DNA of 64,000 nucleotides, from NCBI RefSeq assembly GCF_030908245.1, contig NZ_JAVFJJ010000003.1, positions 248,001 to 312,000 of the forward strand. The letters run 5' to 3'. Source of the DNA: Sinomonas sp. ASV322. GTDB taxonomy: Bacteria; Actinomycetota; Actinomycetes; Actinomycetales; Micrococcaceae. Under the pieces are notes generated by a model. The model ran no database searches. It saw only the letters and a list, made by a program, of their open reading frames with translations, and was not told the origin of the DNA. Position 1 is the stretch's first letter. Every line of letters starts with the position of its first letter. Both the position numbers and the translations under genes were made by a program. This document shows, piece by piece, positions 40,460 through 61,012 of this stretch.

Positions 40460-42256
40460 GTGAGTACGTATGGGGGAATCGTGATCAAAGAGCTCAAGGC
40501 CGTTCGGGGGCTCGTCCGACGACCGGTTGCGGTCTGGGCGGCGGCTTCGATCCTCGGCTCGATCATCGTCTCTGGGCTCGACATGCTGGGTGTGGCGGCG
40601 ATGCTCCCGCTCATGCAGGTGGTCACCGGGCTGTCGACGACATCGGGTCCGGCCGGGATCGCCGCCAGCCTCGTCGGCTCGTCGGAGCCGCGAGACCTCA
40701 TCCCGGCGATCGCGGCCTTCGTGGCCTCAGCCTTCGTCCTGAAGAGCCTCCTGACCATTGCCTTCCGCTGGTGGCAGCTCGGGCTCACGTCGCGACTCGA
40801 GGCCGAGGCCGCGACCGAGCTCATGACCCGCTACGTGCAGTCGCCGTACTCCTCGCATCGCGAGCGTCGGCTCGGGGAGATCCACCGCAGCATTGAGGCG
40901 TGCGTTCCCGAGACGTTCGCGCGCGTCATCCAAGGTCTCCTCAACTGGGCGACGGACGCACTCACGGTGCTCTTCGTCGTCGTCGTGCTCTTCTTCGTCT
41001 CGCCCGTCGCGACGGTGCTCGCAGCCCTCGTCTTCGCCGGAACCGGCTGGGTTGTCCAGCGCCGGCTGCGACCCCGGTTCGCGCGGCTGGGGGAGTCGCT
41101 CGCCCAGTCCAGCATCGACGCGTGGGCGGCTCTCATGCCCAGCCTGTCCGGATTTCGGGAGGTACGCCTCTCCGGAGCAAGCCGGGCCTTCATCGATCGC
41201 TTCGCCGTGGCGAAGGCTGCGAAGGCCCGCGCGAACCGCGAGCTGTCGCTTATCTCCGAGCTCCCCAAGTACGTTCTCGAGGTCGCGTTCGTCGTGGGCA
41301 TCGGAGTCATCGCGGTCGTCCTCTTCGCCGTGAGCTCGTCGGGGGAGGCGCTCTCGGTCATTGGCGTCTTCGCGGCGGGGTCCGTGAGGATCCTGCCGAC
41401 GGTCAACCGCCTCGTCGCCACAACCGGGCTCATCCGGTCCGGGCAGAAGAGCCTCGAGATCCTGTCGACGGAGATCTCCGGGCTCGAGCGGCATGGGACG
41501 CACGTCGCCGAGACACCTCTCGTGGAGTTCGACGGCGACATCGTGCTCGATCGGCTCTCGTTCTCGTTCCCGGATTCCGACGAGCTCGTCCTGAAGGGCG
41601 TGGCCACGACCATCGAGCGGGGGAAGACGACGGCGTTCGTCGGGGCGAGCGGTGCCGGGAAGAGCACCCTCCTCGATATCCTCCTCGGTCTCCTCGAGCC
41701 GACGACGGGCAGCGTCCGGTGCGGCGGGCGCGACATCCGCGACGACCTCAACGGCTGGTATGCGGGACTCGGCATGGTGCCCCAGGATGTCTTCCTCCTC
41801 GACGGAACTCTCGAGGCCAACATCACGCTCGGGAACGAGGATCCAGACCCGATCCGTCTCGAAGAAGCGCTCCGGCTCGCGGAGCTTGACGCCGTCGTCG
41901 CCGAGCTCCCGGATGGACTTGAGACTCGGGTGGGGGAACGCGGCGTCCGGCTCTCGGGCGGGCAGCGTCAGCGGGTGGGCATCGCCCGCGCGCTCTACCG
42001 CGGGCCTCGCGTGCTCGTCCTCGACGAGGCCACGTCCGCGCTCGACAACGCGACCGAGCACCGGATCACCCGGACGATCGAGCGGCTGAGCGGGCACCTC
42101 ACGGTGATTGTGGTGGCCCACAGGCTCTCGACGGTGCGGAACGCGGACAAGATCGTCTTCCTCTCGGAGGGTTCCATCGAGGCCGAAGGCACCTTCGCGG
42201 AGGTCCAGACGCTCAGCCCGGACTTCTCCCGGCTCGTGACCTTGGGCCAGCTATGA
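40460..42256 (+). CDS. ABC transporter, PglK/MsbA-like lipid-linked glycan flippase
   Basis: 598 aa half-transporter with the permease domain first (residues ~20-315, six membrane helices) and the ATPase second: Walker A GASGAGKSTLLDIL, Q-loop VPQDVFLLDGTLEANI, signature LSGGQRQRVGIARALY, Walker B VLVLDEATSALD and switch His in VAHRLSTV. As first gene of a glycan operon with no Wzx gene, it probably flips the undecaprenyl-linked unit, as PglK does. GTG 40460 is used; GTG 40481 with GGGGGA upstream is an alternative. Confidence 0.88.
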   Translation: MSTYGGIVIKELKAVRGLVRRPVAVWAAASILGSIIVSGLDMLGVAAMLPLMQVVTGLSTTSGPAGIAASLVGSSEPRDLIPAIAAFVASAFVLKSLLTIAFRWWQLGLTSRLEAEAATELMTRYVQSPYSSHRERRLGEIHRSIEACVPETFARVIQGLLNWATDALTVLFVVVVLFFVSPVATVLAALVFAGTGWVVQRRLRPRFARLGESLAQSSIDAWAALMPSLSGFREVRLSGASRAFIDRFAVAKAAKARANRELSLISELPKYVLEVAFVVGIGVIAVVLFAVSSSGEALSVIGVFAAGSVRILPTVNRLVATTGLIRSGQKSLEILSTEISGLERHGTHVAETPLVEFDGDIVLDRLSFSFPDSDELVLKGVATTIERGKTTAFVGASGAGKSTLLDILLGLLEPTTGSVRCGGRDIRDDLNGWYAGLGMVPQDVFLLDGTLEANITLGNEDPDPIRLEEALRLAELDAVVAELPDGLETRVGERGVRLSGGQRQRVGIARALYRGPRVLVLDEATSALDNATEHRITRTIERLSGHLTVIVVAHRLSTVRNADKIVFLSEGSIEAEGTFAEVQTLSPDFSRLVTLGQL

Positions 42257-43215
42257 CGGACTCAACGCCCATGGAAGCAACCATCGGATTCGCCGAGAGC
42301 GGGCCCCATCCCGCGAAGCCCTCGCGTTGCGTGAGCGTCGTCATCCCGCACTACGGCGATCCCGCGCCGACCCTTGCCCTCATCGACGCTCTCGAGAAGG
42401 GGAACACGGCTCCGCTCGCCCGGATCATCGTGTCCGACGACCGATCCCCGATCCCGTTTCCCGAGCGCGACGGCGTCGAGATCGTGCGCCGTGCGAGCAA
42501 CGGAGGCTTCGGGTCGGCTGTCAACTCCGGCATGGAACTCGTGGACAGCGAGCTCGCCCTCGTCCTCAACAGCGACCTCGAGATCGGCCCCGCGTTCATC
42601 GCGGACCTTCTCGCGGCGGCCTCGCCGTGGCAGCCGGCCGTCGTGAGCCCTCAGGTCCATGACCCGGACGGCTCGTGCCAGTGGGTGGGACGCCACTTCC
42701 CGACGGCGTCCCACCAGGTAGTCGAGTGGCTTACGCCCCTTGCCCGCTTCCGGCATCGGCGCCCGCTGCACGAGTTCGTGGGCCACGACACGCGCTGCGC
42801 GGACGGCGCCGTCGTCCCGGTCGACTGGGTCGTCGGCGCGGCGATGCTCATCCCAGTGGCCGAGTTCCGCGCAGTGGGCGGCTTCGACGAGCGCTTCTTC
42901 ATGAACGCCGAAGAAGTCGATCTCCAGCGGCGGCTCCGCGAACGCGGCGTGCCCTCGGTGTTCGCCGGGACCGTCGCTGTTGTCCACGAGGGCGGCGGAT
43001 CATCGGACCCCGCGCGGAGGCGCCAGTGGCTCGTCGAGTCGCGGCTCGCCTATGCACAGAAGTGGGGTGGCGAGCGTCGGCTCCGCGCGGGCCTCGCGGC
43101 GGCCTCGGTCGCGAACTGGGCGGTCAACGTGATCCGCCAGGCTGCCGGTCGCGAGGTCGATGCCATCGGGACCCTCGGCCGCGAACTCGCGTATCTGCGC
43201 GGGAGGTCGCGATGA
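42253..43215 (+). CDS. GT2 family glycosyltransferase (rhamnosyltransferase-like)
   Basis: 320 aa. The GT-A nucleotide-binding region (VSVVIPHYGDPAPTLALIDA, RASNGGFGSAVNSGMEL, LVLNSDLEIG with the acidic motif), DWVVGAAMLIPVAEF, GGFDERFFMNAEEVDLQRRL and the C-terminal SRLAYAQKWGG match WbbL-type rhamnosyltransferases. The start overlaps the ABC transporter stop by 4 bp (ATGA). The donor sugar is inferred only. Confidence 0.88.
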   Translation: MTDSTPMEATIGFAESGPHPAKPSRCVSVVIPHYGDPAPTLALIDALEKGNTAPLARIIVSDDRSPIPFPERDGVEIVRRASNGGFGSAVNSGMELVDSELALVLNSDLEIGPAFIADLLAAASPWQPAVVSPQVHDPDGSCQWVGRHFPTASHQVVEWLTPLARFRHRRPLHEFVGHDTRCADGAVVPVDWVVGAAMLIPVAEFRAVGGFDERFFMNAEEVDLQRRLRERGVPSVFAGTVAVVHEGGGSSDPARRRQWLVESRLAYAQKWGGERRLRAGLAAASVANWAVNVIRQAAGREVDAIGTLGRELAYLRGRSR

Positions 43216-44225
43216 CCTTCAGCCACCGACTGCTGCTCGTGACGCCGGCGTTCCACGGTTACCACCGGTCGATCGCGCGTGCTTTCTCCGCGCGCGGCTA
43301 CGACGTCGTGACCCATTGCTATGACGCCTTCGCCACTCTCGGGGAGAAGTTTCGCAACAAGGCGCTCATCGAGCTTCCGTCCCGCTTCGGAGCGGACACC
43401 TACGAGGCGGCGCGGGCATGGTCGACGGCGAGGGCGCTCGCGGCGCTCACGGAGGCGAACCCGACGCGCCTCGTCGTGATCAAGGGCGACACCCTCGGGG
43501 GCGACTTCTGGCACGAGGTCGCCTCACGCGGCCTGCCCCGCATCCTCTGGCTGTACGACGACGTTGCGCGGCACCACTTCGACGACAGCTTCCTGCGGTG
43601 GATCGGTCCTGTCGTGAGCTATGCGAGGTCCGAGGCGGCCGAACTCGTGGCCCGGGGAGTGGCCGCATCCTTTATCCCGAACGCCTTCGACCCGGACCTC
43701 GCCCGGCCCTCGTCGCGTCGATCCGGCGAGGTCGTCTTTGTGGGATCGAGGTATCCCAACCGCGTGGCGCTCCTGGCGGCATTGCGGGAGGCGGGGCTGC
43801 CGATCCGAGCCTATGGCCGGCAGTGGTCGCACCATCCCTTCGACCGGCTCCGGACGTGGGAGCTTTCTCGGCCCGCGCTGCAGTCCGAGCGAGACATTCC
43901 GCTCGCGAGGGCATACTCCGTTCAAGCTGAGGCCGCCGCGGCGCTCAACGTCCATGGGCTCCAGGCGGGGCTTGCGATGCGGAGCTTCGAAGTTCCTGGC
44001 ATGGGCGGCCTCCAACTCGTCGACCGCCCGGACATCGCCGAGTTCTATGAGGTCGGCACGGAGGCGCTTGTCTTCGGGAGCACTGACGAGCTCGTCGACC
44101 TCGCGACGCGCTCGCTGCGCGATCGGGCATGGTCCGAGCGGATTCGGGCTGCGGGGCGACGGAGGAGCCTCGCCGAGCACACGTTCGCCCATCGGATCTC
44201 TCAGGTGGACTCGCTGTGGGCGTGA
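43212..44225 (+). CDS. CgeB-family glycosyltransferase
   Basis: 337 aa. The GT-B fold C-terminal half has the CgeB features GEVVFVGSRYPNRVALLAAL, AYGRQW, AALNVHG and the end motif RSFEVPGMGGLQLVDRPDI with FGSTDELVDLATR. CgeB-like proteins act in spore-coat and surface glycan synthesis. ATGA overlap with the previous gene. Confidence 0.82.
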   Translation: MTFSHRLLLVTPAFHGYHRSIARAFSARGYDVVTHCYDAFATLGEKFRNKALIELPSRFGADTYEAARAWSTARALAALTEANPTRLVVIKGDTLGGDFWHEVASRGLPRILWLYDDVARHHFDDSFLRWIGPVVSYARSEAAELVARGVAASFIPNAFDPDLARPSSRRSGEVVFVGSRYPNRVALLAALREAGLPIRAYGRQWSHHPFDRLRTWELSRPALQSERDIPLARAYSVQAEAAAALNVHGLQAGLAMRSFEVPGMGGLQLVDRPDIAEFYEVGTEALVFGSTDELVDLATRSLRDRAWSERIRAAGRRRSLAEHTFAHRISQVDSLWA

Positions 44226-45310
44226 CTTCAAGCGGGCTGCGGTACCCGCGCGATCTTGGGGCGTGGCGGCGCTGGCACGAGGCCCGGCACCCGCTCCGCC
44301 GGCTCAGAGCTGCGGTCCGTCCCTCGCCGCCGCGGCCCCTGTGGCTCGCCATGAGAGGCGAGGCTCCCCGCCTTCTCGTCGCGATCGACGCCCCGACGCC
44401 GACGCAGATCGCCGCACTCGCAAGGCCGCTTGAGGCTCTCGGGCCGGTCGACGCGGCAGTCCTCGCGCCGAACCGCCTCGACGGGCTGCTCTCGGGCGGC
44501 TGGCAATGGACAGCCCTCGCAGCGGGTCCGGAAGCGGCGGTCCCCGATCGGCTCGGCGCGGTGAGAGCGATCCTCTCCGCAGGGCACCACCTCCCCGCCG
44601 GGGCCCTCGCCGACCGGTGGGGCGCGGACCTCGGGGCCGAGCGGCTAGTGGCGCAGCACGGCCTCCTGACGCCCTACGCTCCACCCATCCCCCACGGTGC
44701 GACGCTCTTCGCCTTCAGCGACGCCGACGCCGAGTTCGTCACGAACGGGCGGGACGACGTCGTCGCCGTCTGCACAGGCTCCCAGCTCCTCTGGGCGGCC
44801 GGGTCCGCGCGGGCCCGAGCGGCCGATGCTCAGGGCCGTCCCGTGTACCTCGGCCAGCTCCACGGCGCCGAGCTCCCGAGGTGGGGGGCCGCGCGCGCGG
44901 CGCGCGAATTCTGCCGATCCACGGGCGCGGTGTATCGGCCGCATCCTGCGGAGGCGGACCTCTTGTCCCGGATCCAGCACCGCGCGTGGGAGCTCTCGGG
45001 ACTCGAGATCGACCGAGGCGGTGCGCCGATGAGCAGGGTCGACCGGCCGGTCGTCTCGGCGTTCTCCACGGGTGTCCTCGAGGCCGCCGCATGCGGGCTC
45101 CCAGCGTGGGTCTTCTATCCGAACCCCCCGCGCTGGCTGCGGGAGTTCTGGGAACGGTACGGCATGGCGCCGTGGGGCGGCGAGCCGACGCGGCCGCCGT
45201 TCAGGGACGAATTGGAGCCGGCTGCGCTCATCGCAGAACACATTTCACGCCGGCTCGGCTGCGAGGTGCGCCCGCACGCCTGGCGTCGGGCCCAGGAAGG
45301 AACGCCATGA
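44222..45310 (+). CDS. GT-B-like protein, candidate nonulosonate transferase
   Basis: 362 aa from GTG 44222 (GTGA overlap). I do not recognise the family with certainty. The visible layout is GT-B-like: ERLVAQHGLLTPYAPPIPHG, an HP motif in GAVYRPHPAEADLL (His241-Pro242) and a Ser-Thr motif in VVSAFSTGVLEAAACGLPAW (Ser282-Thr283). Bacterial sialyltransferases of families such as GT38 and GT52 share HP and S-S/T motifs, and the gene directly precedes a CMP-sialate-type synthetase. On this basis it could transfer the CMP-activated sugar. This is inference; a different capsule-type glycosyltransferase is possible. Confidence 0.6.
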   Translation: MTSSGLRYPRDLGAWRRWHEARHPLRRLRAAVRPSPPRPLWLAMRGEAPRLLVAIDAPTPTQIAALARPLEALGPVDAAVLAPNRLDGLLSGGWQWTALAAGPEAAVPDRLGAVRAILSAGHHLPAGALADRWGADLGAERLVAQHGLLTPYAPPIPHGATLFAFSDADAEFVTNGRDDVVAVCTGSQLLWAAGSARARAADAQGRPVYLGQLHGAELPRWGAARAAREFCRSTGAVYRPHPAEADLLSRIQHRAWELSGLEIDRGGAPMSRVDRPVVSAFSTGVLEAAACGLPAWVFYPNPPRWLREFWERYGMAPWGGEPTRPPFRDELEPAALIAEHISRRLGCEVRPHAWRRAQEGTP

Positions 45311-46011
45311 GAATCCTCTGCGTGATCCCCGCCCGCGGCGGTTCGAAGGGGATACCCCGCAAGAACCTCCGTCACGTCGGGGGGAAGCCGCTTGTCGTCT
45401 GGACGATTGAGCAGGCCCTCGGGGCGGCAGCCGGACTCGATGTCCTCGTCTCCACGGACGACGAGGAGATCGCGCTCCTTGCGGCGGGCGCGGGCGCCGA
45501 TGTGCCCTTCGTGCGGCCGAGCTTCCTCGCCCGTGACGAGTCGCCAACGGAGCCCGTCGTCGAGCATGCGATCGCCTTCCGCACGGAGCAGGGGCGCCGC
45601 CCCGACGCCGTCATGCTCCTCCAGGCCACGTCTCCGATCCGGCTTCCGGGCACGATCGACCGCGCCGTCGGGCAGTTCGTCGCGACGGACGTCGATTCGC
45701 TCGTCGGCGTCGTGCCCCAGACGCCCTTCCTGTGGACGATGGGCGAGAAGCCGGGCGCCGCGTACGCCGTCGACGCGCGGCCGCGCCGTCAGGACCTCGC
45801 CGAGCGGGACTACGTCTACCGCGAGACGGGTTCGCTCTACCTCACGAGGACACGCGTCTACGAGGAAGCCCACAACCGCCTCGGCGGGTGCATCGGACTG
45901 TTCGTCATGGACGAGACCGAGGGCATCGACATCGACACGCACGTTGATCTGGTCGCCGCCGACCTTCACCTGAGTCACTTACACGCCCCTGGGGGAGAGC
46001 CGAACCGATGA
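45307..46011 (+). CDS. neuA: CMP-N-acetylneuraminate-type cytidylyltransferase
   Basis: Activates a nine-carbon acid sugar with CTP. 234 aa. The nucleotide-binding motif VIPARGGSKGIPRKNLRHVG at the N-terminus, LLQATSPIRLPGTIDRAV, RETGSLYLTRTRVYEE and EGIDIDTHVDLVAAD follow the NeuA/PseF/LegF order. Overlaps both neighbours by 4 bp. The exact sugar (sialic, legionaminic or other) cannot be told. Confidence 0.88.
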   Translation: MRILCVIPARGGSKGIPRKNLRHVGGKPLVVWTIEQALGAAAGLDVLVSTDDEEIALLAAGAGADVPFVRPSFLARDESPTEPVVEHAIAFRTEQGRRPDAVMLLQATSPIRLPGTIDRAVGQFVATDVDSLVGVVPQTPFLWTMGEKPGAAYAVDARPRRQDLAERDYVYRETGSLYLTRTRVYEEAHNRLGGCIGLFVMDETEGIDIDTHVDLVAADLHLSHLHAPGGEPNR

Positions 46012-48251
46012 TCGTCGACCGCAACATCGCACCCTACGTCGTCTTCTCGGAGGACCCCCTCCTGAGCGCCCTTCAGAAGATCACGGCGAACCAAGAACGC
46101 ATCGTCTTCTGCGTCGACGAGCGCGGAATCCTGCGAGGTTCGCTCTCCGACGGGGACTTCCGGCGGTGGATCGTCGAGAATCCCGGCGCTGACCTCACCA
46201 GTTCCGCGCTCGACGCCGCCAACCGGAGCGTCCGCAGCGTGGAGCATACGACGTCGCCGGCGGACCTGCGCGCGCACCTGACCCGAGGCGTCACCCACCT
46301 GCCGCTTGTGGATGACCGCGGGCACCTCGTGGCGGTCGCAGTCGACCGCGCGGACGTCATTCGCATCGGGGCCCGCGAGATTGGCGAAGGGAATCCCGCG
46401 TTCGTCATCGCCGAGATCGGCAACAATCACAACGGCTCGGTGGCCCTCGCCAAGCGCCTCGTCGATCTCGCCGCGGAGGCGGGCGCGGACGCCGTCAAAT
46501 TCCAGCTTCGCGACCTCGACTCGCTGTATCGGCAGACGGGAGGCTCAAGCGCCGGCGAGGATCTCGGTGCCCAGTACACGCTCGATCTCCTGACGCGCTT
46601 CTCCCTTCCTGCCGGGAAGCTCTTCGAGGTCTTCGACCACTGCCGGGCTCACGGCGTCGAGGTCATGTGCACACCGTGGGATCTGCCGAGCGTCGAGGCG
46701 CTCGCCGACTACGGCATTCCGGGGCTCAAGATCGCCTCCGCGGACCTCACGAACCACGGTCTCCTGCGGGACGCAGGGTCGCGCGGCCTCCCGCTCATCC
46801 TCAGCACCGGGATGTCGCGGGAGGACGAGATCCGGGAAGCCGCCAGCCTCTTGCGCGGCCTCGGGACGAGCTTCGCGATGCTCCACTGCCAATCCACCTA
46901 CCCGGCGCCGTTCAAGGACATCAACCTCGCGTACATGGACCGGCTCGCGGAAATCGGCCAATGCGTCGTCGGATATTCGGGCCATGAGCGCGGGTTCCAC
47001 GTGCCGATCGCTGCCGTCGCGCGCGGCGCAAAGATCATCGAGAAGCACTTCACCGTCGACAGGTCGATGGAAGGCAACGACCACAAGGTTTCGCTCTTGC
47101 CCGAGGAATTTGCGGAGATGGTCCGGCGGATCCGGGAGACCGAAGAGTCCATCGGGGGCCGGGGGCCGCGCGAGGTCTCGACCGGCGAGCTCATGAACCG
47201 CGCCAATCTCGCCAAATCCCTCGTGGCCGCGCGGCCCCTCGCGAAGGGGCACGTCGTCCGGGCCGAGGATGTCGACGTCAGGAGCCCAGGGAGGGGGCTT
47301 CAGCCGAACGCCCTCCCTCAGCTGCTCGGCCGGACCCTCCGGCGGGACTTCGCGCGCGGAGACTTCTTCTTCGACGGCGATCTGGCCGATGCGGTTCCGG
47401 CGGGAAGGCCCTTCCAGTTCCGCCGCCCGTGGGGGCTTCCCGTCCGGTACCACGACCACGCGACCCTCATGGGGGACTGCACGCCCGACTTCCTCGAGTT
47501 CCACTTCTCCTACAAGGACCTCGAGATCGACGTCGATTCTGTCTTCGAGACCCCGCTCAAGGTCGGCTTCACGACACACCTCCCGGATCTCTTCGCGGGC
47601 GACTTCCTCGTCGACCTCGCCTCGTTCGACCGGGGCGTGTGGGAGCGCTCGATTGCCGAGGTGCAGCGCACGGTCGACATCACACGCTCCCTCGGCCGGT
47701 GGTTCGCGCTGGACGACGAGCCGATCATGGTCGCGACGATGGGCGGCTTCACGAAGGACAGCCACGTGGCGCCCGAGCGGCGCGAGTCCATGTACGGGCG
47801 CATCGGGGACGCGCTGGGCCGCCTCGACACGGCCGGCGTGCGGATCGCAGCGCAGACCCTCCCGCCGTACCCATGGCTCATGGGCGGGCAGCAGTTCCAC
47901 AACCTCTTCCTCGACCCGGCCGACACGGCAGCGTTCGCCGCGGCGACCGACACGTCCCTGTGCCTCGACGTGTCCCATTCGAAGCTCGCCGCGAATCATC
48001 TGGGGATGCCGTTCACCGAGGCCGTCGAGCGCCTCGCCCCCCACTCGATCCACCTCCACCTCGTCGACGCGCGCGGGGTCGACGGCGAGGGCGTCCAGAT
48101 CGGCGACGGCGAAGTCGACTGGGCCGCCCTTGCAGGCCAGCTCGATCGGCTCGCGCCCGGTGTGGGCTTCATCCCGGAGATCTGGCAGGGCCACGTCAAC
48201 AGCGGCGAGGGCTTCTGGACCGCCTTGGACAGGCTCGAGCGATGGTTCTGA
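46008..48251 (+). CDS. CBS-NeuB-SAF-TIM barrel fusion, nonulosonic acid synthase
   Basis: 747 aa, about twice normal NeuB length. Residues ~8-118 are a CBS pair (VFCVDERGILRGSLSDGDFR, THLPLVDDRGHLVAVAV). Residues ~130-372 are the NeuB barrel that condenses phosphoenolpyruvate with an amino-sugar: FVIAEIGNNHNGSVALAKR, AVKFQLRDLDSLYR, LILSTGMS, HCQSTYPAP, VGYSGHERGFHVPIAA, KIIEKHFTVDR. Residues ~396-460 are the SAF antifreeze-like domain. Residues ~470-747 are a xylose-isomerase-like TIM barrel (LEFHFSYKDLEID, LCLDVSHSKLAANH, HLHLVDARGVDGEGVQIGDG). Overlaps neuA by 4 bp. The C-terminal domain might make the sugar substrate, since no NeuC gene is present. Confidence 0.88.
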   Translation: MIVDRNIAPYVVFSEDPLLSALQKITANQERIVFCVDERGILRGSLSDGDFRRWIVENPGADLTSSALDAANRSVRSVEHTTSPADLRAHLTRGVTHLPLVDDRGHLVAVAVDRADVIRIGAREIGEGNPAFVIAEIGNNHNGSVALAKRLVDLAAEAGADAVKFQLRDLDSLYRQTGGSSAGEDLGAQYTLDLLTRFSLPAGKLFEVFDHCRAHGVEVMCTPWDLPSVEALADYGIPGLKIASADLTNHGLLRDAGSRGLPLILSTGMSREDEIREAASLLRGLGTSFAMLHCQSTYPAPFKDINLAYMDRLAEIGQCVVGYSGHERGFHVPIAAVARGAKIIEKHFTVDRSMEGNDHKVSLLPEEFAEMVRRIRETEESIGGRGPREVSTGELMNRANLAKSLVAARPLAKGHVVRAEDVDVRSPGRGLQPNALPQLLGRTLRRDFARGDFFFDGDLADAVPAGRPFQFRRPWGLPVRYHDHATLMGDCTPDFLEFHFSYKDLEIDVDSVFETPLKVGFTTHLPDLFAGDFLVDLASFDRGVWERSIAEVQRTVDITRSLGRWFALDDEPIMVATMGGFTKDSHVAPERRESMYGRIGDALGRLDTAGVRIAAQTLPPYPWLMGGQQFHNLFLDPADTAAFAAATDTSLCLDVSHSKLAANHLGMPFTEAVERLAPHSIHLHLVDARGVDGEGVQIGDGEVDWAALAGQLDRLAPGVGFIPEIWQGHVNSGEGFWTALDRLERWF

Positions 48252-49345
48252 GTACTCCGGGTCGGTGCCCGCGGGAACGCGGCCTCCCCACTGCCCTGTG
48301 GGTCGTTCCCGTGAGCGACCTCGGCGGCGTCGCGCGACACGTGCTCGACGTCGCCGACGTCGGCCTGCCTGGGTGGAGGCTCGTCGTCGTCTGCCCGGCC
48401 GGTCCACTCGCCGAACGCCTGCGGGAGGCGGGCGCCGCGGTCGCGACCGCCCGATTCGGACCGGCCGCAGGCTTCGGCGCCTCGGTGCTCGCACTCAGGC
48501 AGACCGTCCGGGCCCTGCGCACGAGCATCGTGCACGCACACCTCGCGTACGCGGATCTCGCCGCGGCCGCGGCCGTCGCCGGGACGGGCGCCCGGCTCGC
48601 GACGACGGAGCACGGCATCGCGTACGACGACACTGTGTACCACGGCTCGCCCTTCAAGGCGCGGCTCATGGCCGCTGCCCACCGCGCGCGCTTCGCGACG
48701 ACCGACGTCGCGATTGCCGTGTCTGCCGCGACCAGGAGCGCGATGGTCGAGAAATGGCGGCCCGGGCGGGAGATCGCCGTGATTCCCAACGGGGTGGACG
48801 CCGCCGTCGTCCGTTCTCGCGTCGAGGCCCATCGCACCGCGGGGAGAAGCGGTGGCCTCCGGGTGCTGTCCCTTTCCCGCCTCTCCGCCGAGAAGCGCCT
48901 CCTCGAGCTGCTCCAGGCCTTCGCCATGCTGCGCCGAAGCCGTCCCGACGCGACGCTCGTCATCGCGGGGGAGGGGCCCGAGCGGGCTCCGCTCGAAGCC
49001 GCGGCATGCGCCCTCGGCCTCGGCGAGTCGGTGGCCTTCCCCGGCTTCGTCGAGCCCTACGCGGCCATGGGGGCCGCCGATGTGGTGGTGCAACTCTCAG
49101 TATGGGAGAACTGCTCTTACACCCTCCTCGACGCAGCCGCCGCAGGGCTTGGCGTCGTCGCGACGCCGGTCGGGGGAAATCCCGAGATCCTGCCGCAGGA
49201 ATGCCTCGTCGATGCGGACGACGCCGAGGGCGTCGCCCGGGCCATCGAGCGGCAGGCGGTCGACGGCGCGCGCAGGCCTTTCGCGTGGGTGTCGCGCCGT
49301 GAGATGGCCGACCGGATTGCGCGGGCCTATGGCGGGCCTTCATGA
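48242..49345 (+). CDS. GT4 family glycosyltransferase
   Basis: 367 aa GT-B glycosyltransferase. N-terminal acceptor half: WVVPVSDLGGVARHVLDVAD and IVHAHLAYADLAAAAA. C-terminal GT4 half: AVIPNGVDAAVV, VLSLSRLSAEKRLLELLQAF, LVIAGEGPERAPLEAAA and ATPVGGNPEILPQE. The usual E-x7-E appears weakened (SYTLLDAAAAG). Start ATG 48242 overlaps the previous gene by 10 bp; longer upstream codons lie inside the NeuB fusion gene. Confidence 0.87.
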   Translation: MVLSTPGRCPRERGLPTALWVVPVSDLGGVARHVLDVADVGLPGWRLVVVCPAGPLAERLREAGAAVATARFGPAAGFGASVLALRQTVRALRTSIVHAHLAYADLAAAAAVAGTGARLATTEHGIAYDDTVYHGSPFKARLMAAAHRARFATTDVAIAVSAATRSAMVEKWRPGREIAVIPNGVDAAVVRSRVEAHRTAGRSGGLRVLSLSRLSAEKRLLELLQAFAMLRRSRPDATLVIAGEGPERAPLEAAACALGLGESVAFPGFVEPYAAMGAADVVVQLSVWENCSYTLLDAAAAGLGVVATPVGGNPEILPQECLVDADDAEGVARAIERQAVDGARRPFAWVSRREMADRIARAYGGPS

Positions 49346-50499
49346 TCGCGGCTCCTGCCCTTGCGGTGCCCGCGTGGTCGGCCGGGGTGAGGCGTCCACG
49401 GGTCCGCCTCCTCCAGGCCGCCCTGTTCGCCTTCTTCGTGTTCGACGGATACGCCGTCCCCGGCCTTCCGGTCCCCATTCCAGGCGCGGACCTTGCCGCC
49501 ATCGTGCTGGTAGCGCTCGGTGCGTTCCGGGTCCGCGAGCGTTTCCTGGGGCCCACCGCGTGGTACGTGCCGCTCTGGGTTCTCCTCGTGGCGTACCTCG
49601 CGCTCGAATCGTGGGTCAACGAGGTCGACTGGTTCCGGAGGGCTGTCCGTCTCGGGATCATGGTCGTGCTGTCCGTCCAGCTGGGCACCGGTCGGCTCGA
49701 CCTCCGGTCCGGGCTCCTGGGCCTTCTCACGGGCCTCGGCGCCAACGCGGTCCTGTTCTACCTCCGGCTCGCGCCGGACACCTATTCGGGCGTGCTCACG
49801 GGATTCCTCGGAGACAAGAACGTCGCGGGCCTCTACTACGCCCTCGTTCCACTGCTCGCGCTGCCGTTCATAAGATCGCGGAGGCGGCGCGTGGGTCTTC
49901 TCGTCTTCGCCTCCGGGCTCACCTACCTGACCGGGTCCCGGACCTCGATCGCGGCGCTCGCGCTCGCGGGGCTCTGGGTGCTCTTGCGGAAGCGCCTCCC
50001 GACGATCCTGCACGTCCCCGTGCTCGGCGGCCTCTACTTGGCCGACCGGTACGCCGAGGAGAACTTCGCGAACGCGCTGTTCAGCGACCGCGAGGGAAGC
50101 GACCTCCTGCGCTCGCGCATCGGCGAGGCCGCGTCGGAGAAAGCCGCCTCCGCGCCCCCGTATGGCCTGGGGCTCGGCCAGGCGACGGTGGAGATGGACA
50201 ACCGTTCGTGGTTCTTCCATGATTCGTTCCTCGCGCTCTATGTCGAGGGCGGCTGGGTGGCGCTCCTGGTCGTCGTCGGCCTCTTCGCCGTCCTCGGCCT
50301 TCCGCTCTTCACCGCCCCGTCGCGGCGTCCGCATCTGGCGTTCGAGGCTGGGACCGTCGTCGTCATGACCTGCGCGTCGAAGCTCGGCGAAGTCTTCCTC
50401 TCCCTCCCGGCGTTCCTCCTGCTCGGATGCCTCCTGATGGCCCACGCGCTGCGCGGGAGCCCCGAACCGACTGCGGTGGCGGCCGGTGAGCCCGCATGA
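49342..50499 (+). CDS. Wzy/O-antigen-ligase-like polymerase
   Basis: 385 aa with about ten membrane helices and a large loop before the last ones. The region GFLGDKNVAGLYYALVPLLA and LTGSRTSIAALALAGLW, then HDSFLALYVEGGWVALLVVV, match the WzyC/WaaL superfamily pattern. It probably joins repeat units on the outer membrane face. ATGA overlap with the GT4 gene and 4-bp overlap with the acyltransferase. Confidence 0.82.
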   Translation: MIAAPALAVPAWSAGVRRPRVRLLQAALFAFFVFDGYAVPGLPVPIPGADLAAIVLVALGAFRVRERFLGPTAWYVPLWVLLVAYLALESWVNEVDWFRRAVRLGIMVVLSVQLGTGRLDLRSGLLGLLTGLGANAVLFYLRLAPDTYSGVLTGFLGDKNVAGLYYALVPLLALPFIRSRRRRVGLLVFASGLTYLTGSRTSIAALALAGLWVLLRKRLPTILHVPVLGGLYLADRYAEENFANALFSDREGSDLLRSRIGEAASEKAASAPPYGLGLGQATVEMDNRSWFFHDSFLALYVEGGWVALLVVVGLFAVLGLPLFTAPSRRPHLAFEAGTVVVMTCASKLGEVFLSLPAFLLLGCLLMAHALRGSPEPTAVAAGEPA

Positions 50500-51572
50500 C
50501 GCGCTTCAGGGAGCTCGACGGGCTCCGGGGGATAGCGGCGATCGTCGTCGTCGGCTCGCATTTCACGGGCGCCTACAACTCGCGCTATCCGGACGATCCC
50601 GTGGCCATCGTGGACCTGGGCTGGGGCGCCTACGGGGTCCAGCTGTTCTTCCTCATCAGCGGCTTCGTCATCCTCATGTCAGCCTCTCGCGCCCAGAGGC
50701 CCAGCGATTTCGTCATCTCACGCGCCGCGCGCCTCTATCCGGCCTATTGGCTCTCGCTCGCGCTTGCGGTGGGCGTGGGCGCCCTCGCACGCGTCCCCCA
50801 CGTCCCGCTCGATCCGTGGGTCATTGTCGCGAACCTCTCCATGGTTCAGCGGTGGTTCCTCGTCGAGAACGTCAACGACGTCTATTGGACGCTCGCGATC
50901 GAGATGCAGTTCTATGCACTGATCGTGGTGCTGCTCGTCGCGACCCGCTCTCGGATCTCCGACCGGCTGGTGGCGTGGCTCGTCGTCGTGTGGCTCGTGG
51001 TGGCTCTCGCCGTTGCGTGGTGGGCGGGTCCCTTCAGCCGGGGCACGAGTCCCCAGAACGTCATCGCGCCGGTCAAGATGGTGCTCAACGTGTCGCTCGC
51101 GGAATTCGGCCCCCTGTTCTCCCTGGGCATGCTCGCCTATCTCTCGCGGCGGGAGGGACGGCTCCACCCGCTTGTCCCGGTCGCCGCCGCAGTCGCTGCC
51201 GCCGTCGCGTGGATTCTGCACTCGTGGGTCGATGGCTTGTGGGTCGCGGGCATCTGCGCGGGATTCATCGCCGTCGTGCTTCGCCCGACGACGAAGCCGC
51301 TCACCACGCCTCCCGTGCAATGGCTCGGAGCGAGGAGCTACTCCCTCTATGTCGTGCACTCGATCCTCGGATTCGCGCTCATCCGCTGGTTGTGGCCGGT
51401 CACCGGCCGTGATCTCGCGATGCCTGCGGCATTCGCCGTCGTGCTTCTGGCAACGTGGGCGTGCCATGCCGTGGGCGAGCAACTGCTCAGTTCGCTCATG
51501 CGGCGGGCAATGCTCCGCTGGCGGGACCGGAACCGGGAGTCGGATCGACCTGCGGAGGGGCAACATGGCTGA
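50496..51572 (+). CDS. acyltransferase 3 family membrane protein (OafA-like)
   Basis: 358 aa with about ten membrane helices. The N-terminal motif RELDGLRGIAAIVVVGSHFT (with the catalytic His) and LFFLISGFVILMS, then RLYPAYWLSLALAV, are those of acyltransferase 3, which O-acetylates or O-acylates surface sugars. It modifies the glycan by inference. Its stop overlaps the ATG of the next GT4 gene. Confidence 0.92.
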   Translation: MTRFRELDGLRGIAAIVVVGSHFTGAYNSRYPDDPVAIVDLGWGAYGVQLFFLISGFVILMSASRAQRPSDFVISRAARLYPAYWLSLALAVGVGALARVPHVPLDPWVIVANLSMVQRWFLVENVNDVYWTLAIEMQFYALIVVLLVATRSRISDRLVAWLVVVWLVVALAVAWWAGPFSRGTSPQNVIAPVKMVLNVSLAEFGPLFSLGMLAYLSRREGRLHPLVPVAAAVAAAVAWILHSWVDGLWVAGICAGFIAVVLRPTTKPLTTPPVQWLGARSYSLYVVHSILGFALIRWLWPVTGRDLAMPAAFAVVLLATWACHAVGEQLLSSLMRRAMLRWRDRNRESDRPAEGQHG

Positions 51573-52775
51573 ATCGGGCCTTTCAATCGCCATTGCGGCG
51601 AACAACGGAGAAATCGGCGGGGGCGAGGTGATGCTGCTCGCGATCGCGGACGCGCTCCGGGGGCTCGCCGTCGAGGTGCGCGTCCTCGGCCCCGCGAACC
51701 CTGGCGGGCTTGTGGGCGCCGCGCGAGAGCGGGGCTTCGCCGTCGAGGCGCTCGACGGCGCGAGCCGGCTCGACTACCTTCGGGCCCTTCGCGGCTGGCG
51801 CTCCGTGAACCCCGAGCCCGTCCTGTGGGGCAACGGCCTTCTCCCGGTCGTCGCGACGGCCGGAATGCCGCGTCGGATCGCGCACCTGCACCGCCTTCCC
51901 TCGTCGTCCCAGCGAGCCGTCGCGGCACTGGCACGCCGTGGCGCCCTCGCGACGCTCGTCCCGTCGGACTACATGGCCTCGCGCGTCCGCGGCGCGGCCG
52001 TCCTCCCTAATTGGTCCCCCCAACTCGAACGGGTCCTCGTGCCTCGGGGCGACGGCCCGATGCGCGTCGGCTTCCTGGGCCGCCCGTCCGAGGCCAAGGG
52101 GGTTCCCGTGCTTGTCGAGGCCCTCTCCCTCCTCCGCCGGCGGGGGGTCGGGCGGTACATCCTGAGGATCGCGGGGGAGCCCCGCTTCGTCGATGCGCGC
52201 GAGCGGGCCGTCGTCGAGGCGCGGCTCAGGAGCCTCGGTGCCTCTGCCCAGCGGCTCGGCTGGATGCCTCCGGACGAGTTCTTCGGAACGATCGACCTCC
52301 TCGTCGTCCCGTCCGTGTGGCAAGAGCCGTTCGGCCTCGTGGTGACGGAGGCGATGTCCGCGGGCGTGCCCGTAGTCGTGAGCGACGCAGGTGCGCTCCC
52401 CGAGGTCGTCGGCGCGGGCCACCCCTGGATCGCGGCGGCGGGCGACGCCGAATCCCTCGCCGAAGCCATCGCGGCGGCTGCCTCGGCGCTTCCCGCCGAG
52501 GACGTCACCGCAGCGGCCCGCGCCCGGTGGGCCGAGCGGTTCTCGCCTGACGCCGGACGCGACGGCGTTCGGCGCGTGCTCGAATCCCTCGGACGCTCCC
52601 CGGCGCCCCCGCGGGGCAAGCCGCCGCAGGGCGGGCTGTCGCGGGGCAAGCCGCCGCAGGGCGGGCTGACGCAGGGCAGGCTGACGCAGGGCAGGGACCG
52701 GCAGCGCAGGGCGCCTCCCCTCGTGGCGCCGGCCCTGGCCCGGATTCGGCCGCCGATGCGGGAGCCGCTCCGTGA
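51565..52775 (+). CDS. GT4 family glycosyltransferase, frame runs on through a repeat
   Basis: ATG 51565 with GGAGGGG upstream. GT-B motifs are IAANNGEIGGGEVMLLAIAD, VGFLGRPSEAKGVPVLVEAL, RLGWMPPDEFFGTIDLLVVP, EPFGLVVTEAMSAGVPVVVS and ALPEVVGAG. The GT domain ends near 52600. After it comes a repeat-coded tail (PPRGKPPQGGLSRG twice), and the frame stays open to 53826, across all of the next gene. Shifting by -1 in the repeat gives a stop at 52773-52775, with the usual 4-bp GTGA overlap to the next gene. I give that end, but the true C-terminus is uncertain. Confidence 0.65.
52611..52694 (+). repeat. 30-bp and 15-bp tandem repeats in the GT4 3' end
   Basis: Two near-identical 30-bp units (built on GGGCAAGCCGCCGCAGGGCG) are followed by two 15-bp units (GCAGGGCAGGCTGAC type). 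They code for PPQGGL-type low complexity and are where a frameshift would arise by slippage. Confidence 0.85.
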
Positions 52776-56365: not shown

Positions 56366-56400
56366 GTCACACTGTCGGCCCCTTGGGATAGGGTCGCCTC
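56366..56400 (+). promoter_or_regulatory. leaderless promoter of glgX
   Basis: -35 GTCACA (56366-56371), 17-bp spacer, -10 TAGGGT (56389-56394), then 6 nt to ATG 56401. Confidence 0.6.
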
Positions 56401-58503
56401 ATGGAGCCAAAGCCGTATGGTGCGCACCTTGCCGAGGCGGGAACCTCCTTCTCGCTCGCGACCGCCCCGGAGGCGGAACGCGTCGAAGTCTGCCTCGTCG
56501 ACGAGGCGGGCGGACAGACGTGCGTCGACCTCGCTCGGGCGGGCGAGGCCGACGGCGCGGTCCGCTGGGAGGCCGACGTCCCGGGGGCCGGCGAAGGGCA
56601 GCTCTACGGCTACCGGGTCCACGGGCCATGGGACCCTTCACACGGCCTCCGGTTCAATCCCGCCAAGCTGCTCCTCGACCCCTATTCCCTGGCTGTCGCC
56701 GGCATCTACCGTGGCGAGCAAGAGGTTCACGCGCACGTCTTCGGCCAGCCCGAGACGATGGACGTCCACGACTCGCTCGGCCGGGCCATGCTCTCGATCG
56801 TGTGCGACCACGGACAGTACGACTGGGAGGGGGACGCGCCGCCTCGCCGCCCCTACAACGAGACGATCGTCTACGAGACCCACGTCAAGGGCCTCACCGC
56901 GCTCCACCCCGACGTGCCGCAGGAGCTCCGGGGAACGTACCGCGGCGCCGCGCATCCCGCCGTCGTCGGCCATCTCGCGAGGCTCGGCGTGACCGCCGTC
57001 GAACTCATGCCCGTGCACCAATTCATCGAGGATCCTGTCCTCGTCGACAGGGGGCTCTCCAACTACTGGGGCTACAACACGATCGGCTTCTTCGCCCCGC
57101 ACAACGGCTACTCCTCGAGCGGAGATCGCGGCCAGCAGATCACGGAGTTCAAGGACCTCGTCAAGGCGTACCACCAGGCGGGGATCGAGGTGATCCTCGA
57201 CGTCGTCTACAACCACACCGCGGAAGGCAACCACCTCGGCCCGACGCTCTCGTTCCGGGGGATCGACAACGCGGCGTACTACCACCTCGTGGCCGGGGAC
57301 GAGTTCTACTACATGGACTACACAGGCACGGGGAACACCCTCAACGTCGGGCATCCGCTCGCGCTCCGGCTCGTCATCGACTCGCTCCGCTATTGGGTCA
57401 CCGAGATGCATGTGGACGGCTTCCGCTTCGACCTCGCCGCTGCCCTCGCCCGCGAGGACGGCAATGTGGACATGGTCTCGCCCTTCTTCGAGCTCATCGC
57501 CGCGGATCCCGTGCTCTCTCGGGTGAAGCTCATCGCCGAGCCGTGGGACGTAGGCCCCGGCGGGTACCAGATCGGCAACTTCCCCCGGCAGTGGGTCGAG
57601 TGGAACGGCAAGTTCCGCGACTGCATGCGCGATTTCTGGCGGGGCGATCCCGGCACCCTGCGCGAGCTCGCGACGCGGCTCGCCGGATCGGCGGACCTCT
57701 ACGAGGACGAGGGCCGGCGACCCTCCGCCTCGGTCAACTTTGTGACGGTGCACGACGGGTTCACCCTTCGCGACCTCGTCTCCTACAACGCGAAGCACAA
57801 CGAGGCCAACGGCGAGGGCAATCGTGACGGAACGGACGACAACCGCTCATGGAACTGCGGCGTCGAAGGGCCCACCGACGACCCTCACATCCTCGAGCTC
57901 CGCGCGCGCCAGGAGAGGAACTTCCTCCTCACCCTCATGCTCTCGCAGGGTGTGCCGATGCTTTCTCACGGCGACGAGCTCGGCCGGACCCAGAGCGGCA
58001 ACAACAACGCCTATTGCCAGGACAACGGCACCACGTGGATCGATTGGGAGTACGGCGACCACGACCTTCTCCGCTTTCTCGGGCGCCTCGTGGAGCTCAG
58101 GAAGCAGCATCCGGTATTCCGGCGGCGCAGCTTCTTCGACGGAACGCCTGTCGCGCCCGCGGAAGGGGATCCGCTGCCGGACGTCGTGTGGCTCGACGCC
58201 GACGGCGCGACGATGGGGACGAACGACTGGGACGAGGACTGGGCGAAATCGCTCGCGTTCTTCCTCAACGGCGACGCCGTACCAGGTGTTGGCGGGGCGC
58301 CGCGCGACTCGGACATGCTCGTGATCCTGAACGCCGCGGACAACGACGTCGATTACCTCGTCCCCGCCGGGCCCTTTCCCGCCAAGTGGGAGACGATCCT
58401 CACGACGTGCACGGCCGCCCTCGTCGGGGAGCGGACGGGGGCGGGCGAGCGCTTCGTGGTTCCGGCGCGCAGCGCCGTCGTCCTCGAGGCCGTTCCGGAC
58501 TGA
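56401..58503 (+). CDS. glgX: glycogen debranching enzyme GlgX (first copy)
   Basis: GH13 isoamylase-type enzyme that removes branches from glycogen. 700 aa. N-terminal CBM48 ([20 protein letters not shown]), then the barrel: [47 protein letters not shown], nucleophile in [14 protein letters not shown] (Asp344), acid in [14 protein letters not shown] (Glu380) and third carboxylate in [14 protein letters not shown] (Asp452). It starts the glgX-treX-treY-treZ cluster. Its catalytic residues keep almost the same spacing as in the next gene. Confidence 0.95.
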   Translation: MEPKPYGAHLAEAGTSFSLATAPEAERVEVCLVDEAGGQTCVDLARAGEADGAVRWEADVPGAGEGQLYGYRVHGPWDPSHGLRFNPAKLLLDPYSLAVAGIYRGEQEVHAHVFGQPETMDVHDSLGRAMLSIVCDHGQYDWEGDAPPRRPYNETIVYETHVKGLTALHPDVPQELRGTYRGAAHPAVVGHLARLGVTAVELMPVHQFIEDPVLVDRGLSNYWGYNTIGFFAPHNGYSSSGDRGQQITEFKDLVKAYHQAGIEVILDVVYNHTAEGNHLGPTLSFRGIDNAAYYHLVAGDEFYYMDYTGTGNTLNVGHPLALRLVIDSLRYWVTEMHVDGFRFDLAAALAREDGNVDMVSPFFELIAADPVLSRVKLIAEPWDVGPGGYQIGNFPRQWVEWNGKFRDCMRDFWRGDPGTLRELATRLAGSADLYEDEGRRPSASVNFVTVHDGFTLRDLVSYNAKHNEANGEGNRDGTDDNRSWNCGVEGPTDDPHILELRARQERNFLLTLMLSQGVPMLSHGDELGRTQSGNNNAYCQDNGTTWIDWEYGDHDLLRFLGRLVELRKQHPVFRRRSFFDGTPVAPAEGDPLPDVVWLDADGATMGTNDWDEDWAKSLAFFLNGDAVPGVGGAPRDSDMLVILNAADNDVDYLVPAGPFPAKWETILTTCTAALVGERTGAGERFVVPARSAVVLEAVPD

Positions 58504-58544
58504 CACGGGCGCATGCGGGTAACAGGAGCGTCATCACCCCTCGC

Positions 58545-58550
58545 TAAGAT
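58545..58550 (+). promoter_or_regulatory. candidate -10 of treX
   Basis: TAAGAT at 58545-58550 lies about 50 bp before ATG 58600, which has AAGGAG. No clear -35 sequence. It suggests treX-treY-treZ can be transcribed apart from the first glgX. Confidence 0.35.
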
Positions 58551-58599
58551 GCGAGGCACGGGGCCTCGGGACGGCCCACCGTCATCCGCAAGGAGCCCT

Positions 58600-61011
58600 A
58601 TGGAGATCTGGCCCGGAACGTCCTACCCGCTGGGCGCAACGTTCGACGGCACAGGGACCAACTTCGCCATCTTCAGCGAGGCCGCCGCGAACGTCGAGCT
58701 GTGCCTCTTCGACGCGGAACGCCGAGAGACCCGAGCGCCCATGACCGAAGTCGATGGGTTCGTGTGGCACTGCTATCTGCCGGACATCCAGCCCGGCCAG
58801 CTCTACGGATACCGCGTGCATGGCTCGTACGATCCCGAACAGGGGCAGCGCTGCAATCCGTCCAAGCTCCTCCTCGACCCCTATGCGAAGGCGGTCCACG
58901 GTCAGCTCGACTGGGCGCAGCCGCTTTTTTCGTACACGTTCGGCGACCCCATGAGCCGCAACGACGAGGACTCGGCGCCCCACATGATGCTCGGGGTCGT
59001 GACCAACCCGTTCTTCGACTGGGCCGGAGACACCCAGCTCAAGGTCCCGTACCACGAGACCGTCATCTACGAGGCCCACGTCAAGGGGCTCACCCAACTG
59101 CACCCCGAGGTTCCCGAGAACCAGCGGGGAACGTACGCGGGAGTCGCGCACCCCGCCGTCGTCGCCCATCTCAAGAAGCTCGGCGTGACCGCACTCGAAC
59201 TCATGCCCGTGCACCAGTTCGTCGACGACAACACGCTCCAGGAGAAGGGCCTGCACAACTACTGGGGCTACAACACGATTGGCTTCTTCGCCCCGCACGC
59301 GGGCTACAGCTCCGCCGGCGACCTCGGGTCCCAGGTGCAGGAATTCAAGGCGATGGTCCGCACCCTGCACGAGGCGGACATCGAGGTGATCCTCGACGTC
59401 GTCTACAACCACACGGCGGAGGGCAACCACCTCGGTCCGACGCTCTCGCTCAAGGGCATCGACAACGCGCGCTACTATCGGCTCGTCGACGACGCGCCGC
59501 AGTACTACATGGACTACACGGGCACGGGCAATTCGCTCAACGCGCGGCAGCCGCACTCCCTCCAGCTCCTCATGGATTCGCTGCGCTATTGGGTCACGGA
59601 GATGCACGTCGACGGCTTCCGCTTCGACCTCGCGTCAACGCTCGCGCGCGAGTTCTATGACGTGGACAAGCTCTCGAGCTTCTTCGAGCTCATCCAGCAG
59701 GACCCCGTCGTGTCCCAGGTCAAGCTCATCGCCGAGCCGTGGGACGTGGGGCCCGGCGGCTACCAGGTGGGCAACTTCCCGCCGCAGTGGACCGAGTGGA
59801 ACGGCAAATACCGGGACACGGTGCGCGACTTCTGGCGCGGCGAGCCGGCGACGCTCGGCGAGTTCGCGTTCCGGCTCACGGGCTCCGCGGACCTCTACGA
59901 GCGCAGCGGCCGGCGCCCGGCTGCATCCATCAACTTCGTCACGGCGCACGACGGCTTCACCCTGCGAGACCTCGTCTCCTACAACGAGAAGCACAACGAA
60001 GCCAACGGCGAAGGCAACCAGGACGGCGAATCGCACAATCGCTCGTGGAACTGCGGCGCCGAGGGCCCGACGAAGGACGAGAAAGTCCTCGAACTGAGAG
60101 CGCGGCAGCAGCGGAACTTCCTCGCGACGCTCTTCCTCTCCCAAGGCGTCCCCATGCTGAGCCACGGCGACGAGCTCGGCCGGGCGCAGCAGGGCAACAA
60201 CAACGCCTACTGCCAGGACTCCGAGCTCACGTGGATCGACTGGGGCGCGGCGGACAAGCCGCTCGTCGAGTTCACCGCCGCAGTCGCGAGGCTGCGCGCC
60301 GAGCACCCGACTTTCCGGCGGAGCACGTTCTTCATCGGCAAGCCCGTGCGGCACGGCGAGGGGGAGCGGCTATCGGATATCGTGTTCCTCCGGCCGGACG
60401 GCGAGACGATGGTCCCGGAGGACTGGGACACCGCGTTCGGGCGCTCCGTGGGCGTGTTCCTCAATGGGGACGGCATCAACGGCGTCGACCGGCGCGGCCG
60501 GGCCATCACGGACGCGCATTTCCTCCTGTACTTCAATGCGCACGACGGCGAGGTCGCGTTCCGCGTCCCACCGCGCGACTACGCCCCCGGCTGGGACGTG
60601 CTCCTCGACACGTCGGGAGCGCTTCCGAACGGCAAGGAGGTCCGGGCCGGGGCTGAGCTCGGGATCGCCGCGAAGAGCCTCGCCGTGCTCCGCGCCCACG
60701 AACCGGCCGTGGTCGACGTCGACCACTCCGTCGCGGCGTCCCTTGCAGCGCTCGCCCGGAGCGAGGGCCAGCGTCTCGCCTCCGATCCCACGCGGCATGC
60801 GGTGATCGAGCGGCACGCGGGGCCGGGGCCGGCCGGCAGGGAGCCGGAGCCGACGGGCCTCGCGCCCGAGCCCACGGGCGGAGAGCCTCAACCGACGGCC
60901 CCCACGCCGAAGGACGACCGGCCCGAGCCGGCGCCACCGGAGCCCGGCTCTCCCGCGCCGAAGCCGCGGCCCGTCCGCCCGGCACCCACGACCCGCCGGG
61001 GAAGGCGCTGA
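58600..61011 (+). CDS. treX: glycogen debranching enzyme, TreX-type (second copy)
   Basis: GH13 debranching enzyme, 803 aa from ATG 58600, which has AAGGAG upstream. CBM48 region [52 protein letters not shown] (Asp343), [14 protein letters not shown] (Glu379) and [14 protein letters not shown] (Asp451). It differs from copy 1 mainly by a C-terminal tail of about 90 residues rich in Pro/Glu/Gly ([14 protein letters not shown]). It is followed by treY one base after its stop, so it is the natural TreX. Upstream codons from 58513 are rejected. Confidence 0.93.
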
Positions 61012-61012
61012 C

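Follow-up and report, generated by a model that had tools for sequence, protein, structure and literature searches.

The closest described relatives of the system analysed here are the NeuB proteins of the Serratia marcescens capsule loci KL1 and KL2, which combine a PF03102 domain with a COG1082 sugar phosphate isomerase/epimerase domain (PMC9000132; PMC12077157). According to the accessible parts of these reports, the cloned neuB frame measures 2241 bp including 9 bp upstream, deletion of neuB in KL1 led to loss of the capsule and to a 4-fold lower sialic acid colour signal, which the abstract gives as loss of sialic acid, and a plasmid copy of neuB restored sialic acid. The same parts give a ratio of 3-deoxy-D-glycero-D-galacto-nonulosonic acid (Kdn, written KDN for Serratia; a sialic acid that carries no amine) to N-acetylneuraminic acid (Neu5Ac) of about 20:1 in the KL1 and KL2 polymers, with KDN undetectable in a mutant lacking the whole variable capsule region (PMC9000132; PMC12077157). 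Because one result comes from a whole-region mutant and the other from a neuB mutant, these portions link KDN with the capsule locus and sialic acid with neuB itself. Kdn is also described in a wall polymer of Streptomyces coelicolor, so that, as far as the accessible part of that source goes, actinobacteria can use this sugar (PMC7831098). In this study we analyse a fusion gene in a 64,000-nucleotide stretch of Sinomonas sp. ASV322 (the window; contig NZ_JAVFJJ010000003.1, positions 248,001 to 312,000) that joins a CBS region, a NeuB synthase barrel, a SAF domain and a xylose-isomerase-like (XI) barrel, and whose product is probably Kdn as judged from sequence comparison and from analogy with Serratia.

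The fusion gene is a single unbroken open reading frame running from an ATG start to a stop, with the following parts:

46008..48251, + strand: CBS-NeuB-SAF-XI fusion gene, 747 amino acids (aa)
46008..46358, + strand: CBS region, residues 1-117, with the motif SDGDFRR at 47-53
46359..47177, + strand: NeuB TIM barrel, residues 118-390 (Pfam and alignments)
47178..47387, + strand: SAF (antifreeze-like) domain, residues 391-460 (Pfam)
47283..47285, + strand: codon of Ser426, at the position of Neisseria meningitidis Arg314 (alignment to 4ipi/4ipj)
47388..48248, + strand: XI barrel, residues 461-747 (AP_endonuc_2, model, Foldseek)
47736..47738, + strand: codon of Thr577, where E-type relatives have the strand-4 His (alignment)
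47853..47855, + strand: codon of Gln616, where the metal-binding Glu of the superfamily is expected (alignments)

A sequence-only reading of this DNA had proposed a four-module protein, and Pfam finds all four modules in the one intact frame. These are CBS (residues 9-56, 28.6 bits against a cut-off of 24), NeuB (PF03102; residues 151-384, 265 bits against 22.1, which places the protein in that family), SAF (residues 403-454, 41.8 bits against 21) and AP_endonuc_2/XI (PF01261; residues 521-736, 75 bits against 31.1, with the fold in agreement). The survey of other genomes that had been suggested for this architecture shows it to be conserved, both in 26 of 396 genomes of the order and in the best 80 of 220 related loci found in genome contigs. 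The best 80 show 59-83% identity to the fusion, and all match it over its full length except L042 and L048, which are truncated by contig ends; a chance or broken frame is ruled out because 78 of the 80 kept loci match in this way. Matches to XI at E <= 0.001 occur in 32 of the 396 order genomes, strong in 26, all in open frames of at least 753 residues, and weak only in 6. At the level of the phylum there are matches in 22 of 396 genomes, 18 of them weak and 4 strong; the latter include the window's own genome and one half domain (L087/L153), the C-terminal half of an E-type XI that was left out as a full member. An Ensifer canadensis plasmid carries a homologue of 48% identity and is, among 102 plasmid records matching some part of the query, the sole one with a place covering >80% of it. 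The fusion is present in four Sinomonas species (L002-L005), and PF03102 was found in 146 of the 396 order genomes and in neither of the two own-genus genomes of the sample, so the gene is patchy in its occurrence. The CBS-NeuB-SAF-XI architecture is thus a conserved family.

The active site of the NeuB barrel was also found intact on alignment. All checked residues (E136, K164, Q166, K241, S244, S266, Y298, S324, H326, E345, H347 and D358) are identical to meningococcal E25, K53, Q55, K129, S132, S154, Y186, S213, H215, E234, H236 and D247 at the aligned positions, several of which we take to serve in phosphoenolpyruvate (PEP) or metal binding. The fusion therefore resembles N. meningitidis NeuB/SiaC (1xuu, 4ipi, 4ipj) in its barrel, its SAF domain and its metal/PEP residues, and differs in that the meningococcal enzyme has neither CBS nor XI and in several pocket substitutions (F112 to Trp224, E134 to Asp246, N184 to Ser296 and F288 to Asn400). 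In addition, meningococcal Arg314 aligns with Ser426, a position at which the structures 4ipi and 4ipj carry Ala and Lys. Arg314 is, according to the accessible portion of the report on that enzyme, the sole residue of the SAF domain with a direct part in the active site, where it interacts with N-acetylmannosamine (ManNAc) and may position its N-acetyl group; R314A is inactive while R314K works (PMC6795526).

All 32 aligned fusions carry Ser426, as do all 92 members of a larger set, from which L082 was left out because its frame had been misread and in which some genomes are perhaps near-duplicates. Unfused NeuBs behave differently: of 49 NeuB loci taken from the order, the 21 that reach the SAF site all have Arg (the other 28, which do not reach it, were unscored), as do 8 of 8 unfused NeuBs from Alphaproteobacteria, Halobacteria and Clostridia, a set hand-picked from match lists as nine loci, the ninth of which has no SAF. 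The Arg position alone separates fused from unfused proteins cleanly, since counterparts of Trp224 and Asp246 are found in certain unfused NeuBs too. A NeuB tree places 24 XI-linked rows and 21 unfused rows on opposite sides of one branch with support 100/99; four viral near-copies had been left out beforehand, and one row (F_L242) sits on a very long branch. PseI (8h2c) likewise shares NeuB and SAF with the fusion, at about 150 bits by phmmer, but has Arg at the Arg314 position. Identity with the NnaB or PseI equivalogs was rejected, both scores being under the cut-offs: 306.4 bits for TIGR03569 (NnaB, N-acetylneuraminate synthase; cut-off 399.65) and 225.1 bits for TIGR03586 (PseI; cut-off 340.25). 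The SAF arginine with which NnaB contacts ManNAc is likewise replaced, by Ser426.

The XI barrel is predicted with a mean local confidence (pLDDT) of 89.9, and its best Foldseek matches are the D-tagatose-3-epimerase-like MJ1311, UlaE and endonuclease IV (3wqo, 3cqj, 4hno; E 1.3e-8 to 2.8e-8, identity 14-16%). It is like these barrels in fold and in the Asp/His/Glu positions of the metal site, and all 32 aligned fusions share E497, H499, H524, D654, H657, H682, H684, D687, E694 and E724. It differs in that the window's clade has Gln616 in place of a Glu and no strand-4 His. Active sugar epimerases of the PF01261 barrel presumably use a Glu/Asp/His/Glu metal site; here the Glu of the MJ1311 (3wqo) motif ENMP, the first of that set, aligns with Gln616, and all 32 aligned fusions have Gln there, as do 91 of 92 in the larger set, the lone exception (L086) having Glu and no CBS. 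A scan of viral contigs (IMG/VR), of which the best 80 of 579 were kept, added fusions that also have no CBS. Glu616 occurs together with the strand-4 His577 in 11 of 13 of these CBS-less viral fusions (7 of 9 without near-copies) and in L086, while the 11 CBS-bearing rows of the same alignment combine Gln616 with Thr, Ser or Asn at 577; CBS-less L163 has Gln616 and Ser577, and L242 has Gln616 and no His577. Two metal-ligand positions of XI are thus changed together in the window's clade on these alignments. The sequence-only reading was to fall if catalytic residues proved lost from the barrels; the NeuB barrel comes through that comparison whole and XI in part. Mean top frequency over 81 sequences is 0.76 for XI and 0.79 for NeuB.

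XI also occurs as a gene of its own next to neuB, in three viral contigs:

L175:901-2834, L176:4001-5826 and L241:4025-5769 (viral contigs): adjacent separate NeuB and E-type XI genes

Across these comparisons this NeuB clade is repeatedly accompanied by XI, either fused or as an adjacent gene. There is a NeuA-like gene near the pairs of L176 and L241, Pfam-confirmed for L241 only, and the surrounding genes, judged by eye, are ones we take to resemble phage structural genes. The three pairs are possibly a phage nonulosonic acid cassette. A PHROGs search with four viral-contig proteins gave 0 families and a tblastn of one split viral XI against annotated phages gave no match; one fused viral NeuB-XI matched 3 phage records, each over less than 80% of its length and not past residue 348, so that most of its XI half has no match in them. 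A DNA search of L086 against plasmids also gave no match.

At the N-terminal end of the fusion, the first CBS repeat alone passes Pfam, and the second (about residues 65-117) is seen in weak alignments only. Residues 14-119 align weakly (E 0.0013) to the CBS pair of the arabinose-5-phosphate isomerase 4o9k, and matches to GutQ/KpsF span residues 18-110 at scores far under their cut-offs. None of D48, G49, D50, R52 and R53 varies in the 32 aligned fusions, and CBS is confined to the Gln616-type clade among the sequences examined. The likeness to this isomerase of the 3-deoxy-D-manno-octulosonic acid (Kdo) pathway (4o9k; KpsF/GutQ) is that a CBS region containing a (S/T)DGDxRR motif is joined to an enzyme of a sugar-acid pathway, although the match to 4o9k is weak; we take the CBS pair of the Kdo-pathway isomerase to be fused to a SIS isomerase domain, and such pairs have reportedly been crystallised with the cytidine monophosphate (CMP) conjugate CMP-Kdo. 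Since the CBS region is related to that of the Kdo-pathway isomerase, it likely has a regulatory role, and by analogy CMP-Kdn may perhaps exert feedback through it.

The absence of NeuC-like epimerase genes, which had been remarked for the locus, was confirmed and extends to the source genome (assembly 97.87% complete), where TIGR03568 (NeuC), PF02350 (UDP-GlcNAc 2-epimerase) and PF04131 (NanE) give no match at E <= 0.001. ManA is present in this genome. Outside the window there is one partial PF07221 match (G000:C32:41087-41590; L244), possibly a separate sugar epimerase or isomerase.

The fusion gene lies within a run of genes on the same strand:

40460..42256, + strand: ABC transporter with membrane and ATPase domains (Pfam)
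42253..43215, + strand: glycosyl transferase family 2 (Pfam)
43212..44225, + strand: glycosyl transferase-like protein, Glyco_trans_1_2 (Pfam)
44351..45310, + strand: GT-B-fold protein of no Pfam family, a conserved partner (model, Foldseek, tblastn)
45307..46011, + strand: NeuA-like cytidylyltransferase, 234 aa (CTP_transf_3, 1.6e-18)
48242..49345, + strand: glycosyl transferase group 1/4
49342..50499, + strand: Wzy-like protein, O-antigen ligase domain under the Pfam cut-off
50496..51572, + strand: acyltransferase, Acyl_transf_3 (Pfam)

The nearby glycosyltransferases, ABC transporter, Wzy-like protein and acyltransferase lead us to call this a capsule-like locus. The stop of the NeuA-like gene overlaps the ATG of the fusion by 4 bases; a tblastn match to it occurs in 76 of 81 loci, 67 of which exceed 14 kb in length, and in 62 of these 67 the match lies upstream of the fusion gene and ends within 0-126 bases of it (L082 being measured from its own start, 12001). 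The glycosyltransferase frame beginning at 51565 has a tandem RGKPPQGGL / TQGRL-like repeat close to its C-terminal end (52600-52705), and downstream of the capsule-like locus (56392-63502) there are three frames with CBM_48 and/or alpha-amylase domains of glycogen/trehalose type.

By tblastn, 74 of 81 loci contain a homologue of the 44351 gene, and several of those that do not are truncated by contig ends; all 26 fusion-bearing genomes of the order have one as well, and the other 370 order genomes include 15 with strong matches and 2 with weak ones. The modelled protein (pLDDT 93.5) adopts a GT-B fold, and its best PDB fold matches are UDP-GlcNAc 2-epimerases (E 3.5e-6, TM about 0.5); a PDB profile search with the family gave no meaningful match. 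Judging by this model, the product is probably a glycosyltransferase. A NeuC identity was not accepted, the match being at the level of fold only and PF02350 and TIGR03568 giving none; that it may be a Kdn transferase, as its RPHP and FST motifs suggested, is a tentative idea of ours. In three of nine regions taken around 44351 homologues from genomes without the fusion, the neighbour is a phosphomannose isomerase gene:

L246:6763-9164, L251:7481-9720 and L253:7733-10320 (genomes without the fusion): 44351-family gene directly beside a phosphomannose isomerase gene (Pfam)

In L245 (10026-12650) a frame opens with a single fusion-like CBS and runs into a family 2 glycosyltransferase, which has the appearance of a leftover from the NeuB fusion or of a rearrangement product.

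Comparison with Serratia can now be drawn more closely. The KL1/KL2 NeuB is like the window's protein in having PF03102 together with an isomerase/epimerase-type barrel (we take COG1082 to correspond to PF01261), in its length of about 2241 bp against 2244 bp with stop in the window, and in having neuA beside it; its length would fit the CBS-bearing form. The accessible parts of the reports name no genes of sialic acid biosynthesis for these loci other than neuB and neuA. The Serratia protein differs in belonging to a Gammaproteobacterium and in that CBS is unmentioned in those parts. A NeuB with a COG1082 domain is already published for Serratia, and within the literature searched such a form is described in PMC9000132 only, as far as the accessible portions of the sources go. 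Our searches of a partial literature collection returned no title on a CBS-NeuB-XI fusion, and as far as they show the following are new: that many actinobacteria have a CBS-bearing form, that fused and unfused NeuBs divide cleanly at Arg314, that XI is of two types (Glu and Gln), and that phage-like contigs carry NeuB and XI as a split pair.

We favour a Kdn-type synthase, and give this explanation as a whole a probability of about 0.62. The Kdn product is held probable because the SAF Arg is lost, the epimerase families were not found and Serratia, in the accessible parts of its reports, makes KDN. On this view Kdn would form in the NeuB barrel by condensation of PEP with a hexose that bears no acetyl group, D-mannose or a close relative being the likeliest. 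The NeuA-like neighbour would activate Kdn to CMP-Kdn, and the nearby glycosyltransferases, together with the Wzy-like protein and the transporter, would incorporate it into a capsule-like polymer at the cell surface. The CBS region would most likely sense a nucleotide, perhaps the end product CMP-Kdn, and adjust the synthase. XI would be a dedicated sugar-handling partner of the synthase clade, probably supplying or holding the hexose. The amino sugar that had been expected as substrate is disfavoured, since the loss of the SAF Arg and the KDN data available from Serratia point to a substrate without an N-acyl group.

Several observations weigh against this explanation. The changes from Glu to Gln and His to Thr make XI catalysis uncertain. 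At the 426 position the CBS-less viral-contig fusions have Ser in 11 of 13, with one Cys and one Ala (7 of 9 Ser without the near-copies L168, L170, L171 and L173). The partial PF07221 match counts mildly against it, as a protein of this GlcNAc 2-epimerase family could supply ManNAc. As for Serratia, in the accessible parts of the reports the neuB mutant was only 4-fold lower in the colour assay, the absence of KDN refers to the whole-region mutant, the polymer held some Neu5Ac too (PMC9000132), and its NeuB is likened to the fusion by length and domain description.

The role of XI admits two other explanations. It may be catalytically active, as an isomerase, epimerase or phosphatase that provides the NeuB barrel with free hexose, in which case at least two pathway steps would reside in one polypeptide; its conservation close to that of NeuB, its fold shared with sugar epimerases and endonuclease IV, the three phage-like contigs in which it is a separate gene beside neuB and the retention of His577 and Glu616 in E-type relatives all speak for this, but the CBS-bearing clade has replaced both residues, and the 50 listed PDB fold matches have identities no higher than 18%. 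We regard it as possible, though not favoured, and the same grade falls on the earlier claim of several steps in one polypeptide, as that claim requires an active XI. The idea that the extra barrel prepares the substrate thus stands in part: XI is widely linked to NeuB, yet the window's clade has Gln for Glu616 and no strand-4 His, and such preparation is plausible, though chemically doubtful because these two metal-ligand positions are changed. A further step, that XI is a new kind of enzyme making the unacetylated hexose of Kdn from a central metabolite through a Gln-containing metal site, would unite supply, condensation and end-product feedback in one polypeptide and give a NeuB-XI route needing no NeuC, kinase or phosphatase; this we consider speculative and rather unlikely. 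Similarly doubtful is that XI is a pseudoenzyme descended from an active barrel and now serving as a binding or allosteric module, through which the synthase is shaped or regulated and part of the SAF function perhaps replaced. The joint change of two ligand positions among many invariant ones, and the restriction of CBS to the Q-type XI clade among the sequences examined, suit such a module, whereas the invariance of ligand-like H524, D654, H657, H682 and E724 in 32 of 32 looks like an active site.

An altogether ordinary synthase of N-acylated nonulosonic acids with a divergent pocket, drawing ManNAc from the PF07221 protein or from a 44351 epimerase, is distinctly improbable. The partial PF07221 match, the UDP-GlcNAc 2-epimerase fold matches of the 44351 model, the homologue in all 26 fusion-bearing order genomes and the Neu5Ac noted in the accessible account of the Serratia polymer are in its favour. 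However, Arg314 is absent from the fusion, PF02350 and TIGR03568 miss 44351 in the source-genome searches, GT-B folds generally yield UDP-GlcNAc 2-epimerase fold matches, and 44351 homologues also occur without a detected fusion (the 15 strong cases in 370 genomes), three of them adjoining a phosphomannose isomerase gene.

Bacterial Kdn synthesis is known in few cases. If the Kdn-type synthase proposed here is correct, the combination of NeuA with an XI-fused or XI-paired NeuB that has no Arg314 would be a simple marker for Kdn polymers, predicting them in many actinobacteria as well as in capsules of the Serratia type, and what the extra barrel does would become directly testable. It would also call for caution in naming such proteins N-acetylneuraminate synthases.

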